Shown one piece after another: positions 11,005 through 21,104 of a DNA stretch of 47,086 nt. This DNA is from an uncultured Deferribacteres bacterium. GTDB taxonomy: Bacteria > Zhuqueibacterota > JdFR-76 > DREG01. Within the stretch, counting starts at the first letter, position 1; every line of letters starts with the position of its first letter. The DNA lies in the NCBI GenBank assembly GCA_913009825.1, contig CAJVYQ010000037.1, positions 1-47,086 on the forward strand. The letters run 5' to 3'. The position numbers and the translations under genes were made by a program. A model generated the notes under the pieces. It did no database searches and was not told the origin of the DNA. It saw only the letters and a list, made by a program, of their open reading frames with translations.

Positions 11005-12819
11005 TTAGTTTAATGTATCCGCCACTATATATTTTACGGAGAAATTGTTAAAATCAAGAATCACCTTTTCCCGGCCATAACGGATTTCAATCAACTTGCT
11101 TCCTTTTTTCGAGTTTACAAACGGTCCGCCAAAAAGCGGCCAATTTTTAAATATTATTTTCGAACCGTTGACAAGCCGGCGGTTCGGATAAGTAAAATCC
11201 ATCTGAACGCCGCGGGAATTTAAATACACCACGTGAAGTTTCTTTAAATCCACACGCAGCGAATTGGATTCTATCTGCTGCCGGAAAGCCGCAAATGAGG
11301 GAAATTCGGATTCTTGTGCCACTTCCATGATGACGCCGGTTTTCCGGCTGTGCAACGTTAAGCGAAAATGATCCTTCTCTTCGAACCATTTCCCTTTCGT
11401 GAGCGGTTTCACTGCAAAATACACGGAATCCGATGCGCAGAAAATCCAGCCATCCTCCTCTGTCCGTTCTTCAATGATTTTCGAAAAGAATCCGTTAACA
11501 TGCCGATTCTTTTCATTTTTAGGAATATTGTAAAGAGCGATGAGTGTGTTTTCATGCTGCATCACTTTTTCAAATGGGGAACCTTCCACCCATTTGTTCG
11601 GATCGTTGTAATAGGGCCGCTGTTTCACAATATCCGCGACAATCCTTTCCGGTTTGTCATCAAAATATTTTAAAAGCTGTTTTGCCGAACAGGAAGGATT
11701 GATAAAGAAACAAGTAGAACCGTCTTTTTGCGAAACCCAGGTCAAGTCCCACCGGTGATTTTCCACTGCGGTAATATCACCGAACGAAGAGCCCAACGCA
11801 TAATTAGCGGTAATATAGCTGTATTTCCACGTGGGCAAATCGCTTGTGCTGATGCCAAAACCACGCCGCGGCGCTTTGGTTTCTCTGTGGACGTAGGAAT
11901 TTTTCCGATCCGTGGCAATACTGGCCAAAAGCGGCAGCGGGCGAAATCCCTGCACCGCAGCCAAGCCCACGTAGTACGTCTCCGGCAATTCCGGATGAAA
12001 ATCGCAATCACCAAAAAAAAGATATCCGAACGGAACGGCCACGCCGCAATTCAACACCGTATGCGTAACCTGATTGTATTTTTCCCGGCTGTGCGCGCCG
12101 ATCCAGTTTCCTTTCAGATATTCCGGTACCCAATCGGCTAACAGAAGCTGCATCATCAGCCAGGCTTTTTGCCTCATCAACGGATCTTCGGCAAAATCGT
12201 AGAGTGTAGTAAAACAGAGCAGATAAATTGCATGATAATTGACGGAATCATATTCCAACTGGCCGACGGAAACGGTTCGATTAATAAAATTATAAATCCA
12301 GTTTTCCGCTTCCTGTTTGGCTTCTGCCGCTGTTGTGCCATTCGCAAAAACCGATCCGTTCGGCCAGGTCTGGCCAAACAGATAGCGCGCCGTGCGAACC
12401 TGCAATTTATGGTTTTCCGTGAACCCTTTGTCCCGGCCAAAACTTAACACCAGCCGCTCTCTCACTTTTTCTGCAAATCCGGACGGCAACCGGTCTTTCA
12501 AACGTAAAACGGCATCCATCATGGCATATACATGAAAACTGCCCCAATGAACTGAATCCGAAACGGTATCCTGCAAAAATTGGTAGCCTTTTTCCCTGTC
12601 CACTCCAGTAGCGAGTTTCACAATGCCAAGGTAGATTCTTTTGCGGGGATCATCTCCTTTCATCCAGGTCATGCCGGCAATTGCGTGTAAAATAGTTTGC
12701 CGCCGCTCTTCAAGCTGCCGGTAATATTTCCGGGTGGTGGGATAAAGCGGCTGTGCAGACAGATCGCACATGCATATTTGCAGCGAGAGTAAGATAAAAA
12801 TAAGAAGTATTCTTTTCAT
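11005..12819 (-). CDS. Large secreted protein of unknown function, alpha/alpha-toroid-like
   Basis: A 604-residue exported protein. The ATG at 12819 has GAGG upstream and starts a signal peptide (MKRILLIFILLSLQICMCDLSAQ). The open frame continues to 13083 only by reading through an intron-like remnant, so the longer version was rejected. Residues about 40-330 are helical with aromatic-rich motifs (YHAIYLLCFTTLYDF, GNWIGAHSREKYNQ) and residues about 400-600 are beta-rich. This two-part build recalls polysaccharide lyases of the heparinase/alginate lyase type, but I see no decisive catalytic signature and do not assign a function. It ends 18 bases from the IorA-like gene start and may be transcribed ahead of it. 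Confidence 0.7.
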   Translation of the reverse strand: MKRILLIFILLSLQICMCDLSAQPLYPTTRKYYRQLEERRQTILHAIAGMTWMKGDDPRKRIYLGIVKLATGVDREKGYQFLQDTVSDSVHWGSFHVYAMMDAVLRLKDRLPSGFAEKVRERLVLSFGRDKGFTENHKLQVRTARYLFGQTWPNGSVFANGTTAAEAKQEAENWIYNFINRTVSVGQLEYDSVNYHAIYLLCFTTLYDFAEDPLMRQKAWLMMQLLLADWVPEYLKGNWIGAHSREKYNQVTHTVLNCGVAVPFGYLFFGDCDFHPELPETYYVGLAAVQGFRPLPLLASIATDRKNSYVHRETKAPRRGFGISTSDLPTWKYSYITANYALGSSFGDITAVENHRWDLTWVSQKDGSTCFFINPSCSAKQLLKYFDDKPERIVADIVKQRPYYNDPNKWVEGSPFEKVMQHENTLIALYNIPKNEKNRHVNGFFSKIIEERTEEDGWIFCASDSVYFAVKPLTKGKWFEEKDHFRLTLHSRKTGVIMEVAQESEFPSFAAFRQQIESNSLRVDLKKLHVVYLNSRGVQMDFTYPNRRLVNGSKIIFKNWPLFGGPFVNSKKGSKLIEIRYGREKVILDFNNFSVKYIVADTLN

Positions 12820-12945
12820 CGGAACCTCAGAATGAAAAAACAGTAGAAATAACCCGCCTATACAAAAGAAAAACTTGGCAGCGGAAAACTTCTTTTCCCG
12901 AAAGCATGAATAAAAACAGATCCGCTGGCAGCGGTTGGTTACAGG

Positions 12946-13337
12946 TAAAAGCAGTCGACTTCTCGACTGCTCCCCCACAGATCCGGACGTGAGAATTGCT
13001 ATCATCCCGTTTCCCGGGATTGATTTCTTAAAATCCAAACAGGCACCACCCCATTTGGCATATAACCAAGCTACCCTAAGCATTCTAATACTCTATGTTG
13101 AAACGGTTGGTAACTTCTGTGAAGCTCCCATTGTGTCATCCGTCACAACGTGGAACTTGTCCTGAGCTTGCCGAAAGGTCAGGCTTCTCCTACACCGAAG
13201 TTTCGGCATCGCCTGGGTCGCAATTCCCCACCTTTCCAATCAGAGGCTTTCTCTCCCGATTGAATGGGAATCATCCGTGTGTACAAAAACTGTCTGATTC
13301 AGAGCTCTATCCAGACCTTGCGAACTCAGCTTCGCAC
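12946..13337 (-). mobile_element. Degenerate ORF-less group II intron-like remnant
   Basis: Read on the minus strand, the segment begins GTGCGAAGCTGAGTTCGCA (5' end GTGCG and a perfect TGCGAA/TTCGCA hairpin). It ends with ATTCTCACGTCCGGATCTGT, which resembles the 3' arm of bacterial group II domain V, then a perfect 8-bp hairpin at 12951-12970 in the domain VI position and TTTTAC. No reverse transcriptase remains; the AGC triad side of domain V is not recognisable. Text up to about 13440 (AGGTGAAAGTTCAACCT hairpin) may belong to it. An insert with CCTGACCTTTCGGCAAGCTCAGGA lies near 13160. Moderate confidence from pattern only. Confidence 0.45.
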
Positions 13338-14324: not shown

Positions 14325-16352
14325 CTATCCATGAAATTTGTAAATTTTAGGATAAAATTTATATGAAGAACACAACCAAACCCATTGTCTACATTGTCTT
14401 TCTAAACGTATAACTTTCAGGGGGGCTTCGATGAACATCACATGAAGCTGATTCTTTTTTTGGATTACTAATGCTAAAACATACGATTTACCCTTTTCTC
14501 TTGCTGTTGCCTCCTCATTACTTGTAAGGGTGAAATGTTGGCCTTCATATTTTAATGATTTTACTTCAACGCAAATAATTTCACCATTTGGATTTATCGC
14601 TTCAATATCATATCCAACGTTTTGCCTACTAACATCTTTAGCACTCCAACCGTCTGAATTCAAAATTTCTAGTACTTGTTGTTCTGCACTCCTCCATTTT
14701 ACTAAACTAATTCTTTTCGAGGGTACAAGTTCAGTAGAACTCTCTTTATTATTTATATCGATAACTTCTTTAACTTCTCTTTTCTTTGACGGAACTATCT
14801 CTTGCGCAATTTCATTATCAGTAATAGCACCAACTAATCTCGATAACTCAGAAGATATACCAATCTTTTCTGTTATGATATCAATAAAATTATCATCTAG
14901 CTTATTTCTTTTACTAACAACCTCTGATAATGATAAATTCTCATTATTAACCGACCAAATTTTCCAATCTTTATCAAGTCTTGTTCGGGAAATCTGTTTG
15001 GTAGAAACTTGCTTGGTTATATGCGCGACGACCTCAGCAGCCCCTTGGGTAGTTAATTGATTCTTCTTTAACTCAGGAGATAGCATTTCTATAGTCAATT
15101 CATGTACACCTAAAAATTTTAACAAAGAATCTAACCCTTCAGTCTCCCCAATATCTCTAGAAGGTATGTTTATCTTTGCATTATTAGCAAGCTTTGTGCT
15201 ATCATTAGGATTTAGCCAACTAGGACGGCGATAAAAATTATTAAATTGACCTTTGGATGCTGTCTCTATTGATTCCATCAACTGTTTTTTGAAGGATTGC
15301 TTTTGAAGCTTGAGCAAGCGTGGTTCAAATAAAGGAATGAATAGTTCAATTAAGTTGCTTTTCGAAAAATCGTCAGTCCGATCAAGACATGTTTTTAATA
15401 AAACTATATAAAAGTTTGCGATTTTTTCAATGGTCTCTATAGTGATGTCATCTTGTATAACTCTAGTCCTGGAGGGATCAGTGCTAATATTTCCATTAAT
15501 TTTGAAGCTGAATCCGGTCTCTTCTGAAGTTGGAAGAAATGCATGAACTACTGCATCCTTAGGTAAGAGCTTTTTGTATTTTTCACCTTCTTTTTGAACA
15601 GCAATGGAGATGTCCTCGTAATGAAAAACAGTCCAATAGTTTTTGTTATTATTAATCGATAATTCTACTAATGATGAATTTTCATCGATGCTAGTATGGC
15701 CTATCCGATATGTAACAATTGATTTAGACTCAAGTGTTACCTTTTCTATATTTCTGAGAAATAATAAAGACGATGGTTCAAGACTTTCAAATTCACTCTC
15801 CACAAAATTTGCAATTAAATCTGAAAAGACAAAGATAGTATTGTACCCATTTTGGTATAACTGATGTATCATCGGTGATAGTTGTGCCTTTATTTTGGAA
15901 TCTATCTGATGAGGGATTCTGATTAGTGGAACCGAACTCGCACTTGGAATGAGAGATGATGTTAATTCGCGAGAAAAAGTAGCCTCAAGGCTACCACTAA
16001 AAAGATGAATCTGTTTTGCAAAACCAACAACTGATTTGAAACCAATACCTCTAAATCCAATACTTGTCCTACGTTCTTTTTGGGAGGCAGCACTTCGACA
16101 TAAAGCTTCAAAATCTAGAACAGTAAATTTACGTCCATCGTTAGCAACAATTATATGCTGATTTATGCGCTTAATTAGGATACGAACTGACCCAGCATCA
16201 TCTGCATTTTGGAGTAATTCAATAAATGAACGTGAGCTATAACTTTCTGCAATGTATCTTTCTAACCCAGCTAAATCAGATATAAGATTTGGCGAGCCTT
16301 TGGCTTCTTGAATTAATGACTTTCTGACATTATTCAATATTGAATCATTCAT
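14325..16352 (-). CDS. NO VEIN/sacsin-like GHKL ATPase with C-terminal DUF3883-type nuclease-like domain
   Basis: A 675-residue cytosolic protein. The N-terminal GHKL (Hsp90-like) ATPase fold is shown by ELLQNADDA (residues 45-53), ANDG (70-73) and the glycine-rich lid GFRGIGFKSV (99-108), as in sacsin and plant NO VEIN. The C-terminal domain has GYDIEAINPNGEIICVEVKS (about 580-599), the D...ExK pattern of DUF3883/Mrr-like PD-(D/E)xK proteins. This pairing recurs in bacterial genes suspected of acting against foreign DNA; that role is inference. The start at MNDSIL follows the stop of the 16357 gene by four bases, implying translational coupling; no SD is visible. AT-rich, probably the second gene of a two-gene integron cassette. 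Confidence 0.83.
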   Translation of the reverse strand: MNDSILNNVRKSLIQEAKGSPNLISDLAGLERYIAESYSSRSFIELLQNADDAGSVRILIKRINQHIIVANDGRKFTVLDFEALCRSAASQKERRTSIGFRGIGFKSVVGFAKQIHLFSGSLEATFSRELTSSLIPSASSVPLIRIPHQIDSKIKAQLSPMIHQLYQNGYNTIFVFSDLIANFVESEFESLEPSSLLFLRNIEKVTLESKSIVTYRIGHTSIDENSSLVELSINNNKNYWTVFHYEDISIAVQKEGEKYKKLLPKDAVVHAFLPTSEETGFSFKINGNISTDPSRTRVIQDDITIETIEKIANFYIVLLKTCLDRTDDFSKSNLIELFIPLFEPRLLKLQKQSFKKQLMESIETASKGQFNNFYRRPSWLNPNDSTKLANNAKINIPSRDIGETEGLDSLLKFLGVHELTIEMLSPELKKNQLTTQGAAEVVAHITKQVSTKQISRTRLDKDWKIWSVNNENLSLSEVVSKRNKLDDNFIDIITEKIGISSELSRLVGAITDNEIAQEIVPSKKREVKEVIDINNKESSTELVPSKRISLVKWRSAEQQVLEILNSDGWSAKDVSRQNVGYDIEAINPNGEIICVEVKSLKYEGQHFTLTSNEEATAREKGKSYVLALVIQKKNQLHVMFIEAPLKVIRLERQCRQWVWLCSSYKFYPKIYKFHG

Positions 16353-16356
16353 GTTA

Positions 16357-16704
16357 TTAACATTTTTTAGGATATACGCGAATTTTAGCTGGCTTAGAAG
16401 ATACATCTGAAATTGTTATATCAAGAGACTGTAAAGCAAAAAAATCTTCTTTTTCTATGTAGTCTGTTGTAGTTCCAATGACTTTACCATCTCGGTCAAA
16501 TGCTGTCGCAACAATTTCAATGTCGTCATCTATTCCTGTTCCGTTTACAGCATGTATTTCACCGTAGATCTCAACATCTGGCATATAGTCAGAGTCTTCA
16601 TAAAAAGATATTTGAGCATTTAAACCCTCAATAGTGATACCAAATTTTTCTTCCATAATTTCAAGTCGCTCAATATTTTCAATTTGTTCTTTTTTATTAG
16701 CCAT
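16357..16704 (-). CDS. Small beta-rich protein of unknown function coupled to the GHKL ATPase
   Basis: A 115-residue protein with a strong GGAGG site 5 nt before its ATG. A short helical start (MANKKEQIENIERLEIMEEK) is followed by alternating beta strands (DVEIYGEIHAVN, DDIEIVATAFDRDGKVIGTT, LQSLDITI) with the layout of FxLYD/immunoglobulin-like sandwich domains. No signal peptide or membrane segment. The stop overlaps the start region of the ATPase gene, so the two are likely made together and may work as a pair. No family assigned. Confidence 0.75.
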   Translation of the reverse strand: MANKKEQIENIERLEIMEEKFGITIEGLNAQISFYEDSDYMPDVEIYGEIHAVNGTGIDDDIEIVATAFDRDGKVIGTTTDYIEKEDFFALQSLDITISDVSSKPAKIRVYPKKC

Positions 16705-17151
16705 AAAGACCTCCTTACTGATAATCTTTACAAAGTTTTAAAAAAATTAACACATTCATAAATGTCGTGGATGAAATAAAAAAAATATTACACATCAACG
16801 CGTGTTTTCACTCCGTTTTGTTTCGCCGTTTTCATCGGACAGAAGGATCTGTGCTCAATCATCATCAATTAACTCGTGTTCATCATCTATATGCAACTCT
16901 ATTGAACTAATGTGAAAATTTGATTTAATGTATTTTGAAATATTTAGCAGCTAGTCCATTCATAACTTCCTGATTTATTTTGAACTCAGCACACTTTAGC
17001 AGAATCACATTCCTCCATTTTAGCTTCGGATTTTACTCTTCTTTTTTTATCCTCAATATAATGCAGAGTGGTAATAACGCTGTCATTATTTTAGGACATT
17101 TATATTGTTTCTTCAATGAGTTAATCATAATTATACTTCCTACTTCCAACC
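16705..17151 (-). other. Cassette interval with a probable decayed small ORF
   Basis: Within this 447-base gap, 17008 to 16855 on the minus strand reads ILLKCAEFKINQEVMNGLAA and KYF, then after a frame change near TTTCAAAATACA continues YIKSNFHISSIELHIDDEHE and LIDDD-stop. The acidic end looks like a genuine protein terminus. A GGAGG lies just before a GTG at 17008, but spacing is short. No other gene or clear attC is visible here, so a decayed cassette is a reasonable but weak reading. Confidence 0.3.
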
Positions 17152-17247
17152 AAACGACGTTGAGATAACCTGCGCTGCCACAAATTAAACTTTCACTTAG
17201 CAACGAACCCAACGCGTGGCAGCGTCAGGTTGATTGATTTGTTGGGC
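17152..17247 (-). other. Integron attC site 3
   Basis: On the minus strand the R'' box GCCCAAC (17247-17241) comes five bases after the kinase stop codon. It is followed by L'' AACCTGACGCTGCCAC (17231-17216) and, after a 34-base variable loop, L' GTGGCAGCGCAGGTT (17181-17167). The arms pair perfectly apart from a single extrahelical A, the hallmark of attC. R'' with its preceding CT (CTGCCCAAC) is the exact complement of the cassette start GTTGGGCAG at 18750. The outer R' box near 17160-17152 (GTCGTTTGG) departs from GTTRRRY. Confidence 0.85.
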
Positions 17248-17251
17248 AGCT

Positions 17252-18274
17252 CTATTCCAATGTTGTATCTGCGATATACTGATACATGTGTCTAATTGCA
17301 TCTGTGAGGCTACTATGCCTTCTGTATTCGGATCGAATACGACGACCGTTCACAGAAACTGTAACAGTATTATTAGTAAAATCAATCGCGCAACGATGTA
17401 GTTTACCCGCACGACAATAGCCTTGCCATTCATCATCCGCCAGACGAATCCAGTCGATATTGAAACGAAGCCTATCAAGATGCTGTCCAAATGCCTGTGC
17501 AGTGTAAAATCTCTTTGCAATATCCGCGTTGCATGCCTTTCTGACTATTCGACGGAGTTTCTCAGGAATATACTCTTCGAAACCGATTCTCTTAATAAGT
17601 GTTCCATTCAGCATGTGGTTTGATAAATTAGGAACGGCATTGATCACTGCGCGCCAATCCGCAATATTTGATATAGCGCGAAAGAGTGTAACTCCCATTG
17701 CAAAGACATCAGTCTGCTCAGTTGTAGCATTGGTGCGAAAGTACTCTGGTGGCAAATGAGGTCTGTAGCCTTTTGCTGAGCCGATCAAAGAAAGTCCTGC
17801 ATCTGTGGCAAGGCCAAAATCTGACAGCTTTGGTATATTTGGAGATAATAAAATGTTCCCCGGTTTAACATCCCGATGAAGGAACCCTTGCGAATGGGCG
17901 TGTTCTAACCCAAGGAGCGCCCCTCGGACGTAATCAACAGATTCGCGGATGGACACCCAGCGTGATGCAAGGGCAGCCTGAAGAGATCCCTCTGGAATAT
18001 ATTCCAAATCAAGAACTATTCTATTTGTACCGTTTACGGGGAAGATGTTTGCTTCGTTGATTGCTACGATATGCTTATGTTGGCACTTATTTAATATCTG
18101 CGCTTCTTCTAGATTCTGCATAAAATTAGAGGGACCGGTCGACAATATAACCTTAATTGCCTTTTCAGTACCAAGAGCTCTATCAAACACATGAAATACT
18201 TGCCCGAAGTTGCCGGAACCGAGAGGGCTTATAATCTGGTATTTGTCAATCGTTGTCGGTATAGGTGTTATCAT
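17252..18274 (-). CDS. Serine/threonine protein kinase
   Basis: A 340-residue soluble Hanks-type kinase. It shows the glycine loop LGSGNFGQVF (18-27), the ATP-orienting lysine in AIKVI (K41), the catalytic loop HRDVKPGN (133-140), DFG (152-154) and a PPEYF version of the APE motif (175-179). It should phosphorylate Ser/Thr on an unknown partner. There is no transmembrane helix or sensor such as PASTA; residues 270-340 form a short C-terminal region with no recognised domain. Its ATG overlaps the stop of the upstream gene in ATGA (18271-18274), so the two are translationally coupled. Both genes lie in one integron cassette bounded by GTTGGGCAG (18750) and CTGCCCAAC (17249). Confidence 0.93.
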   Translation of the reverse strand: MITPIPTTIDKYQIISPLGSGNFGQVFHVFDRALGTEKAIKVILSTGPSNFMQNLEEAQILNKCQHKHIVAINEANIFPVNGTNRIVLDLEYIPEGSLQAALASRWVSIRESVDYVRGALLGLEHAHSQGFLHRDVKPGNILLSPNIPKLSDFGLATDAGLSLIGSAKGYRPHLPPEYFRTNATTEQTDVFAMGVTLFRAISNIADWRAVINAVPNLSNHMLNGTLIKRIGFEEYIPEKLRRIVRKACNADIAKRFYTAQAFGQHLDRLRFNIDWIRLADDEWQGYCRAGKLHRCAIDFTNNTVTVSVNGRRIRSEYRRHSSLTDAIRHMYQYIADTTLE

Positions 18275-18723
18275 GGCAGTTCAAACCAAGCTGCGAGAAC
18301 AGAATGCTTCTGGTTCTTGTCCCAATAAGGAGGGTTTGAACCAAAAACAGTATCGCAATGGGCATATAGGTCTGTTCCTCTCGGGAGCCCGAGACGAGAT
18401 GCAACATAATTGCCAGAAACATAGGAAGTGATGGGTAGGTTACGTCTATGTGCAAGAAGGTTGAGAATACCGAAAGGAAACGAGGACGTGAAAAGTTGAT
18501 TCTTCTTTGGCGCAAGTGTTAGCCTATACGCTATGCGCTCAGGAGCAGATTGATTAATAATCAAATTGAACTGAGACTCATACCAATCCATTAATGCGGG
18601 TACGTCGGTTGTCGCCGGAGTTACAAGTCTATCCTTTACGACTAACACAGGTGCGATCTTTGTCCCCTCAAGAACCGAATAGCGAAACTGCCCTGTAGCA
18701 ATATGTACACCAAGTACTTTCAT
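18271..18723 (-). CDS. Small RNase H/actin-fold-like protein coupled to the kinase
   Basis: 150 residues with an N-terminal MKVLGVHIATGQFRYSVLEG strand-turn-strand typical of RNase H-like or ASKHA folds (RuvC, YqgF, DUF3010-like proteins), then a middle helix region (PALMDWYESQFNLIINQSAP) and a conserved-looking LTLAPKKNQLF. The first strand lacks the usual acidic catalytic residue (His7 stands where Asp would be), so nuclease activity is doubtful. A GGAG site 11 nt upstream fits the start, 27 bases after the cassette boundary. It overlaps the kinase start by four bases; it could be the kinase's substrate or regulator (inference). Confidence 0.7.
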   Translation of the reverse strand: MKVLGVHIATGQFRYSVLEGTKIAPVLVVKDRLVTPATTDVPALMDWYESQFNLIINQSAPERIAYRLTLAPKKNQLFTSSFPFGILNLLAHRRNLPITSYVSGNYVASRLGLPRGTDLYAHCDTVFGSNPPYWDKNQKHSVLAAWFELP

Positions 18724-18743
18724 AATAGTATTTTCTCCTTCCT

Positions 18744-18842
18744 GCCCAACGGTGCAGGTTAAGCTGATTTAAACGCTCAACAAATTAGCAAAATACAAAG
18801 AAACAGCACGCGTTTAAATTCATCTTGAACCTGGTGTTAGCA
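18744..18842 (-). other. Integron attC site 2
   Basis: On the minus strand R'' TGCTAAC (18842-18836) comes four bases after the stop of the 18846 gene. The arms CAGGTTCAAGATGAATTTAA and, on the other side, TTTAAATCAGCTTAACCTG pair over about 22 bases with two extrahelical bases and one mismatch around a variable loop. The site ends with a canonical R' GTTGGGC (18750-18744). R'' is the exact complement of this cassette's start GTTAGCA (19872). The stem is homologous to attC site 1. Confidence 0.9.
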
Positions 18843-18845
18843 TTG

Positions 18846-19835
18846 CTAAATTAAAGATACCCAACTCGTTTTTAATTGTGCAATTTCAGTTATATCCTTT
18901 AATGCTCCAACGATCCCTCCATAAGGGAAAAAATTCAATCCAATATTTATTGTTGCATTGAGGGGTGTTGTTAATCTTGATTTTAATTCTTCAACTAATT
19001 CCTTATGGAACAATTTTAATATTAAATTTTCAATGTCCCTTTTATCACTGATACTAGGGAGATTTATTAAAACTTCATTTGTAATATTTTCAATCATCCT
19101 TCTATAATCACGTCCGGCTTCAGATTGCCTTATTTTATGTATTTTTTCCCAAGATTCATTTGTGTAATCAGGATGATCAAGTGAAATCCAAGTTTTATAA
19201 AAGAAGTCCTTTAATTCGGGTTTCCAAATACTTTTAATTTGCTGATTCTTCCATTCAATTACTTTTGAAATATTATTATCTACCAAGAAAGGTAAATTCA
19301 AACGATAGGCAAGCAAAGAATCAAAATATAATGATTTTAAAATAAAATTTTGAACGAATGAATTTTCTGGTAGGATTTTTTTCAATTCTAAATTATTTTT
19401 ATCTTTAAAAATTTCTTTATTTGCAAGGCGCGTGTCGTTTTGGTCTAAATCATTACTTATCCAAATAAAATATTCTTCATTTAAGAGACCAGCGTCAAAG
19501 ATTATTGGGTAATAGTCAATTTCATAAGATGCTATCATATTACCACTAAGAACAGGGTGCTGAGTATTTGATCCTTCTGGGCTCATAAATAAAGTCATTT
19601 CCTGCCCTGGGGTAAAGTAATTTATCTTTTCTCGGTCTGTTGAAATTTTATTTGCAGGAATCAAGAAATCAAATGATCCATTCTCAACAATACTACATGA
19701 ATATTTTGCGTCTTGAATGATTATTTCATCATAAAGAAGTAAATAATTTTTTATCCTTCTTTCAAGAGACTTCCGCGTCTCGGGACCAGTAAACCATGCA
19801 GCGTTTGATTTAAGAGGTAAAAAAAATCTACTCAT
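18846..19835 (-). CDS. Cassette protein of unknown function
   Basis: A 329-residue AT-rich gene, sole occupant of its cassette. It begins MSRFFLPLKSNAAWFTGPET, 37 bases after the cassette boundary, has no signal peptide, and is helical in the second half (residues 185-300). A mildly hydrophobic glycine-containing stretch near the C-terminus (LNATINIGLNFFPYGGIVGA) could touch a membrane. I recognise no family. The N-terminal 60 residues (ERRIKNYLLLYDEIIIQDAK) read like proteins that sense or bind a ligand, but nothing specific can be claimed. Its cassette neighbours suggest a defence or stress context. Confidence 0.75.
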   Translation of the reverse strand: MSRFFLPLKSNAAWFTGPETRKSLERRIKNYLLLYDEIIIQDAKYSCSIVENGSFDFLIPANKISTDREKINYFTPGQEMTLFMSPEGSNTQHPVLSGNMIASYEIDYYPIIFDAGLLNEEYFIWISNDLDQNDTRLANKEIFKDKNNLELKKILPENSFVQNFILKSLYFDSLLAYRLNLPFLVDNNISKVIEWKNQQIKSIWKPELKDFFYKTWISLDHPDYTNESWEKIHKIRQSEAGRDYRRMIENITNEVLINLPSISDKRDIENLILKLFHKELVEELKSRLTTPLNATINIGLNFFPYGGIVGALKDITEIAQLKTSWVSLI

Positions 19836-19865
19836 TTATTTTTAACCTTTTGAATGTTAATACAA

Positions 19866-19999
19866 TGCTAACGGACAATGTTAAGCTGATTTAAACAGCG
19901 GCAGTGAACTTGATAGAAACCACAGAAATTGAACCAAAACCCACTGAAAAAACAAAAAAACAACGGCTGTTTAAATTCAGCTTGAACAAATGGTTATAC
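19866..19999 (-). other. Integron attC site 1
   Basis: On the minus strand R'' GTATAAC (19999-19993) and a six-base spacer lead into TTCAAGCTGAATTTAAACAG. After a variable loop the return arm GCTGTTTAAATCAGCTTAA pairs with it, leaving two extrahelical bases. R' is GTTAGCA (19872-19866). R'' with its preceding CC (CCGTATAAC) exactly complements the cassette start GTTATACGG at 21104. Stem sequence and length (134 bases in all) match attC site 2 closely. Confidence 0.9.
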
Positions 20000-20031
20000 G
20001 GCCAAATCTACCGATTGGCACTTTATTAAAA

Positions 20032-20976
20032 TCATTGACCGAATTCAGATTCAATTTGTGCTTTTGCTTGAAGTAATTTATCACGTATTTGACTCGTATG
20101 ACCTAAACCTTCTATAACCTTTTCCAATTTATTTAAAGTTGAACCAATTTTAAGTTCAATAGGCATAATTTCCGTGTTTTTATAATCTCCTTTAAAGTTA
20201 AGTAATCTGTCCTTTATAAGATTAATTTCAAAGTGTTCCAACATCGCAGCTGCTCTCCAGGGCACTCGGGTAGTTTTCCCTGAACTTGCCTCAATAATGA
20301 GTGCATCCATAGCTAAAATGTTTTTATAAGCTATTTCTGTCATTCGTTTCATAAATTTTCCAAAATATGCAGCTACATGACATAAGAATGCAATTTCTTC
20401 ATCAGTGTGTGAGATATTATCAATACTTAGGGTTATCTCTAAAAATTCTTCGAATTTAATTAAAACCTCTTTGCTTGATTTCCAAAGATGGCAAGCCTTT
20501 CTTAGATTTTGCTTTACTGCTTGTTCATCTATTGGGGAGTCTGCTTCATCGAGATCTAAAGCTAAAGCATCTTTTAAAAAAACTTTCAGTTTACTTTCCC
20601 CTCCCAGTTTATCTTCATATTCAAAATGCCGGATTCCATGAAGATCGAAAGGAACGTGGCTATCCTTTTTCTTAAGTAGAATAACATTTCTTTTTAACGC
20701 ATGGCAAATGCCAAGTTCATAATAAACATTAGGATTACTACCTGTCAGGTCAGCAATGATAACTTTTGCTTTCTTGATATAGTCAAAAATTTCAAACATG
20801 ATAGGTGTTGATGCAAAATTTTGATCCGCCCTCATACATCGAAAACCGAGCTCTTCAAGGATAGGATTTATGGCGTGGTGATAAACTGCGTCATATTTTT
20901 CATCAAATGGCATAATAACGAAACAGAGATCATCCTCTATAGGCACTTTTCTGTTTAAATATTCAAAAATGTTCAT
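20032..20976 (-). CDS. Protein with deoxyribosyltransferase/TIR-like N-terminal domain
   Basis: 314 residues. The first 120 form a Rossmann-like domain: CFVIMPFDEKYDAVYHHAIN (18-37), ADLTGSNPNVYYELGICHAL (75-94) and KRNVILLKKKD. The NPNVxYELG motif with its Glu (E87) is shared by nucleoside 2-deoxyribosyltransferase-like and TIR-like domains that cleave N-glycosidic bonds of nucleotides or NAD. Residues about 125-314 are helical with no recognised domain and may sense a trigger. Such fusions occur in anti-phage genes; activity here is inference. The protein is soluble. It is the first cassette downstream of the array promoter. Confidence 0.82.
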   Translation of the reverse strand: MNIFEYLNRKVPIEDDLCFVIMPFDEKYDAVYHHAINPILEELGFRCMRADQNFASTPIMFEIFDYIKKAKVIIADLTGSNPNVYYELGICHALKRNVILLKKKDSHVPFDLHGIRHFEYEDKLGGESKLKVFLKDALALDLDEADSPIDEQAVKQNLRKACHLWKSSKEVLIKFEEFLEITLSIDNISHTDEEIAFLCHVAAYFGKFMKRMTEIAYKNILAMDALIIEASSGKTTRVPWRAAAMLEHFEINLIKDRLLNFKGDYKNTEIMPIELKIGSTLNKLEKVIEGLGHTSQIRDKLLQAKAQIESEFGQ

Positions 20977-21095
20977 AAGTTGTCTCTCCCTATAATTGAT
21001 TTAAATGACATTCAGAATATAAATATTCAAGATAATTATTAGAATGACCAAGCAAACATCATTTTATTATGTAGAAATAATCCAAATACTCTAAG

Positions 21096-21104
21096 CCGTA
21101 TAAC
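21096..21104 (-). other. First cassette boundary (R' box, attI-like junction)
   Basis: On the minus strand GTTATACGG starts at 21104 and is the exact complement of CCGTATAAC at the end of the same cassette. It marks where the first cassette was inserted, so sequence between it and the promoter at 21243 is the attI-like leader. No attC arms lie on the upstream side, as expected at the array head. Confidence 0.75.

Follow-up and report, generated by a model that had tools for sequence, protein, structure and literature searches.

The 47,086-nt stretch of DNA analysed here (the window) almost certainly carries a CALIN: three tandem cassettes in the same orientation, with predicted attC ends that look functional, whose integrase is encoded elsewhere in the chromosome. 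The window corresponds to the complete contig C37 in a draft genome of 5.1 Mb (123 contigs, 95.9% complete) with a G+C content of about 43%. As judged by RpoB, the host belongs to the FCB group; its nearest neighbours are Calditrichota, Ignavibacteriota and Rhodothermota, and its own phylum forms a separate branch with modest support. HemB was dropped as a phylum marker since many bins are without HemB, and RpoB was used instead.

A preliminary description of this DNA had proposed three minus-strand attC sites. All three are present and genuine: attC 1 at 19866–19999 (134 nt), attC 2 at 18744–18842 (99 nt) and attC 3 at 17149–17247 (99 nt; its start had been placed at 17152). The sites have canonical hairpins with 16/16, 15/16 and 16/16 stem pairs, respectively. 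Two extrahelical bases were found in every one of them, and the earlier statement that one attC has a single extrahelical base has to be corrected. Read on the cassette strand, the layout is the same in 3/3 sites: the AAC of R'', 6 nt, 2 bp, an extrahelical base, 6 bp, a second extrahelical base and 8 bp, the complementary arm being followed by 8, 8 and 9 nt in the three sites and then by GTT. In L'' of all three sites, the extrahelical bases are a C and an A (cassette top strand) at a distance of 6 nt, and the same C and A occur in L'' of the aadA1 and aadB attC as read from public plasmids. The AAC/GTT core is present in every site. The consensus R boxes (RYYYAAC/GTTRRRY) are matched by R'' of site 3 (GCCCAAC) and R' of site 2 (GTTGGGC), with deviations at site 1 (GTATAAC/GTTAGCA) and at R'' of site 2 (TGCTAAC).

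An exhaustive scan was carried out for this fixed geometry with at least 15/16 Watson-Crick pairs, that is, at most one mismatch. It returned exactly these three attC and no others in the 47-kb window. Zero matches were obtained in 400 kb from other contigs of the same genome and in that DNA reversed. Since the scan gives only three sites and none in the controls, the occurrence of the attC goes beyond chance, and this is the main evidence for it. The three sites span 2.9 kb, within the spacing of a CALIN (a minimum of two attC separated by less than 4 kb). A weak candidate from an architecture scan (16237–16421) was rejected, as it was missed by the covariance model R2 described below and overlaps an ORF. 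Other copies of the TTCAAGCTGAATTTAAAC stem, to which the preliminary description had drawn attention, were sought in this genome by exact pattern, and none was found.

The boundaries of the cassettes follow from their R boxes. Cassette 1 (TTATACGG... to the G of the next R') occupies 19872–21103 on the minus strand, and its R' box (GTTATACGG, 21096–21104, minus strand), a 10-bp self-cognate match to R'' of attC 1, forms the left boundary of the array. Cassette 2 lies at 18750–19871 and cassette 3, with two genes, at 17155–18749, both on the minus strand; the outermost R' of attC 3 (GTTTGGT) is the right boundary. The G+C contents of cassettes 1, 2 and 3 are 33, 29 and 44%, against about 43% for the genome (32.9% measured over 20000–21104, 29.4% over 18843–19871 and 44.0% over 17248–18750). 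All genes and attC of the array share one orientation, and the genes run towards their own attC. The R' and R'' of each cassette are self-cognate: GTTATACGGC/GCCGTATAAC (10 bp) in cassette 1, GTTAGCATTG/CAATGCTAAC (10 bp) in cassette 2 and GTTGGGCAG/CTGCCCAAC (9 bp) in cassette 3. Self-cognate boxes of 7–9 bases had been claimed before, and the matches thus prove to be slightly longer. AAC positions picked at random from the window reach a match of at least 9 bp in 1.3% of cases and one of at least 10 bp in 0.5% within a 700-nt zone; the R' position of cassettes 2 and 3 is not free, being the R' of the preceding attC. The length of the matches is ordinary, since class 1 cassettes give 8–13 bp by the same measure.

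Such an array is likely mobilised by the standard mechanism, as follows. The bottom strand of attC, here the plus strand of the window, would fold into a hairpin with two extrahelical bases. The folded site would be cut and recombined by IntI at the G/TT of R', in this case in trans. The cassettes would be excised as circles and inserted with their own R' and R'' matched, and the self-cognate boxes would then be the trace of the circular state of the cassette.

A search of the genome with TIGR02249 detected no intI in the window contig, as had been claimed for the 47 kb. One full-length match was obtained in the genome, on contig C88 (11442–12383; 471 bits, cut-off 265), in a frame without stops. 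The array had been called integrase-less, either a CALIN-type cluster or one with its integrase further off. Locally it is a CALIN, but genome-wide the term integrase-less is wrong, as an intact IntI with an adjacent attC is present on C88 and the truncated start of a second intI lies at the ends of C21 and C111. The cassette beside the C88 IntI (12590–13149, with a 12-bp self-cognate pair) starts with GTTATAC at 12590, about 0.1 kb from the start of the intI ORF (12491), and its attC at 13143–13273 has 16/16 pairs. This attC is homologous to window site 1 over the full length, loop included (z about 11). The homology indicates that the window array shares a site lineage with the C88 integron, and on this account the C88 IntI is most likely the agent acting in trans on the window cassettes. 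We infer that this IntI is active and is the mover of these cassettes. Upstream of R' of cassette 1, no attI-like similarity to C88 was seen.

C88 could be mis-binned, given a draft of 123 contigs, though this is less likely because of the homology of its attC to window site 1. Since the window array lies 17–26 kb from either end of C37, it does not just represent a terminal piece that broke off the C88 array. After its attC, C88 ends in an apparent group II intron start in cassette orientation (RF02005, 22 bits, below gathering), and one arrangement with a group II intron just downstream of an attC has been described (PMC7923331). The contig probably broke at the intron repeat. The region 11433–13391 of C88 (locus L010) thus comprises the intact IntI, one cassette and the intron start at the contig end. 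The contig ends of C111 and C21 (loci L007 and L008, 1–190) encode the N-terminus of the second intI. Both contigs begin inside this gene; their initial 127 bases are exactly identical, after which the sequences diverge, and this suggests that two copies were merged during assembly.

Outside C88, attC occur at a minimum of four loci. In addition to the array on C37, single sites were located by model searches on C25 (41413–41510, minus strand), C14 (94974–95046, minus strand) and C53 (1600–1665, plus strand). The C53 site belongs to a single cassette that is complete, carries a glyoxalase-like gene and has self-cognate boxes of 9 bp (locus L155, 1093–1665). The C14 site comes after a uracil-DNA-glycosylase-like gene (locus L154, 14975–15519). 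The C25 site is the edge of a 3-kb insert between cobA/hemD and hemB (locus L153, 7334–10411), which contains a MazF-type toxin-antitoxin pair, an AlbA_2 protein and the one attC; in G002, a genome of the same family, cobA/hemD and hemB lie about 30 nt apart without such an insert. No recognisable cognate boxes were seen at C25 and C14, from which it appears that some inserts are old or incomplete.

These scattered sites bear on how the CALIN arose. With a probability approaching one half, the cassettes entered an ordinary chromosomal site by attC × attG insertion, carried out by the resident or an earlier IntI. Insertion at attG has been described (Loot et al. 2024, as cited in PMC12901181), and the several attC-bearing loci outside C88, the complete C53 cassette and the splitting of cobA/hemD from hemB by the C25 insert all point in this direction. 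The missing cognate boxes at C25 and C14 argue against it, as does the window locus, for which no empty site could be recovered from flank synteny in genomes of the same family and the same order. Decay of an integron, in which an adjacent ancestral intI disappeared or was relocated by rearrangement, leaving the cassettes stranded, is a serious contender that nevertheless falls short of an even chance. CALINs occur commonly and have often been regarded as integrons that degraded (PMC9024848, PMC9668308), a truncated second intI start does exist in this genome (C21 and C111 ends), and the last R' (GTTTGGT) is without a good cognate downstream. Against decay, the window holds no intI remnant or attI-like sequence, and the cassette boundaries and stems are intact; moreover, single attC cassettes at several unrelated loci are not expected from one decaying platform. 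Because single cassettes are scattered in this way, insertion is slightly favoured over decay.

Covariance models were also applied to the sites. Model R1, built from 12 class 1 attC only, finds site 3 with 40.3 bits (E=1.6e-8), and the AT-rich sites 1 and 2 were not detected by it. Model R3 was built from 24 attC of other genomes, none from this one. Over 571 kb it gives scores of 33.6–46.4 bits to site 3 (46.4 bits), to the C88 site and to three others, the rest scoring at most 13.4 bits. Sites 1 and 2, both AT-rich with an 8-nt spacer, were not recovered by R3. A check with attC models thus supports site 3 and leaves sites 1 and 2 unrecognised, attC 1 as a whole being undetected by covariance models; model R2 contains sites 1 and 2, and its finding of site 2 is not independent. 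The assignment of sites 1 and 2 draws instead on their geometry, their box matches and their homology to other attC. Run without filters, R1 yielded nothing but truncated and chance matches, and it was left unused for sites 1 and 2. Covariation counts were not usable as evidence, as the sequences had been chosen for pairing. A search of the window with Rfam gave nothing at gathering threshold; to our knowledge, Rfam holds no attC family. That the hairpins are terminators or unrelated inverted repeats is very improbable: for each site, some shuffled sequences fold equally well, and independent models miss sites 1 and 2, but the fixed spacing and the extrahelical positions are exactly those of class 1 attC, no equally good geometry was found in the control DNA of the genome, and the boundaries fall at the R-box matches.

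The array encodes four proteins, all on the minus strand. The gene of cassette 1 (20032–20976) specifies a 314-aa protein with an N-terminal TIR-like domain (CAP12/PCTIR TIR; PADLOC TIR effector, E=7e-16), which matches Pfam PF10137 below cut-off (E=0.001). Relatives of this TIR protein adjoin attC in G016 and G041, although both of these attC score weakly (21.7 and 28 bits). The cassette 2 gene (18846–19835) encodes a 329-aa orphan of no family, with nothing above threshold in Pfam, NCBIfam and PADLOC. In cassette 3, gene A (18271–18723), a 150-aa orphan, overlaps gene B (17252–18274) by 4 bp. No match to the gene A product was found in Pfam, NCBIfam, PADLOC, plasmids, viral contigs and 81 other genomes of the phylum, and the viral contigs held no homologues of the orphan ORFs. 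Alignment-free structure predictions of the two orphan proteins gave pLDDT of 47 and 33 and were unusable. Gene B encodes a 340-aa Ser/Thr protein kinase with a PD-T4-6/MAD6-like kinase domain (PF00069, E=1e-37; in PADLOC, mad6 E=1e-42 and PD-T4-6 E=5e-37). The kinase domain is common to gene B, the single-kinase defence protein PD-T4-6 and the kinase MAD6, whereas the 340-aa gene B product has another C-terminus and is co-encoded with the 150-aa orphan; it scores below the full-length NCBIfam cut-off for MAD6. Judging from these resemblances, the cargo (the TIR protein and the orphan/kinase pair) may plausibly serve phage defence. Adjoining the array at 14325–16406 is an AT-rich gene (34% G+C) that combines a sacsin-like ATP-binding domain with a NOV_C domain and is TmtA-like in PADLOC; it is possibly another defence gene.

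The phylum of the host was surveyed for integrons through draft genomes. IntI above cut-off is present in 19/39 of them, and attC at E<=1e-3 in at least 41/82, a lower bound, as genome-wide model searches score part of the candidates only (one missed the C88 site). In the IntI tree, eleven IntI of the phylum form one clade adjoining Neomarinimicrobiota and others fall elsewhere; the C88 IntI is unplaced. Window site 2 is identical at 81/99 positions to an attC in G068, a genome of another family of the same phylum, where it accompanies a different cargo gene. This identity points to cassette exchange or shared site ancestry across families. The IntI on contig C48 of G036 (locus L094) clusters with those of Gallionellaceae/Methylococcaceae, and a 62-nt stretch across its attC is identical to a betaproteobacterial locus (L063); this reflects either a recent cross-phylum cassette transfer or a mis-binned contig. 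A well-formed chromosomal integron, in which ten attC lie upstream of a single intI within 17 kb, was observed in the Verrucomicrobia bin RA.bin74 (locus L052). The earlier remark that integrons of FCB lineages are little described is partly right, although complete ones have been reported in Chlorobi, Ignavibacteriae and Salinibacter (PMC9024848). For the host phylum itself, no description of a CALIN was found in the papers searched.

The most interesting aspect of the array is the dispersal of cassettes around an integrase-bearing genome. The survey documents integrons as common in an uncultured FCB phylum, and the host is a natural genome in which several cassette loci are separate from the integrase. 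Should the dispersed cassettes be attG-type insertions, they would be a natural counterpart to the laboratory insertion by IntI outside attI. A bolder reading, put forward tentatively and held less probable than its alternatives taken together, is that this genome, perhaps the whole phylum, scatters cassettes over ordinary sites of the attG type by its resident integrase. The chromosome would then serve as a cassette store whose candidate defence cargo includes a kinase/orphan pair to which the searches revealed no relative. The cargo supplies candidate defence genes that can be tested.

Compared with known systems, the window array agrees with a CALIN as defined by IntegronFinder (two or more attC with less than 4 kb between them, in one orientation, with no intI nearby). 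It differs in that an intact intI and a related attC are present on another contig and that more single attC are dispersed in the genome. The class 1 cassettes with the aadA, aadB and catB3 attC have the same succession of R'', 6 nt, 2 bp, extrahelical C, 6 bp, extrahelical A and stem, and self-cognate R boxes similar in length to those of the window. In contrast to them, the window cassettes have AT-rich stems (sites 1 and 2), an 8-nt R' spacer, longer loops and no resistance genes. Integrons of metagenome-assembled genomes, archaeal CALINs included (PMC9668308), are mostly CALINs with attC over several contigs per bin, as here; unlike that set, the present host is a bacterium of the FCB group with IntI in the same bin. 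Thus, the window array is a CALIN, an element of an ordinary type, in a bacterial group that has been little studied.
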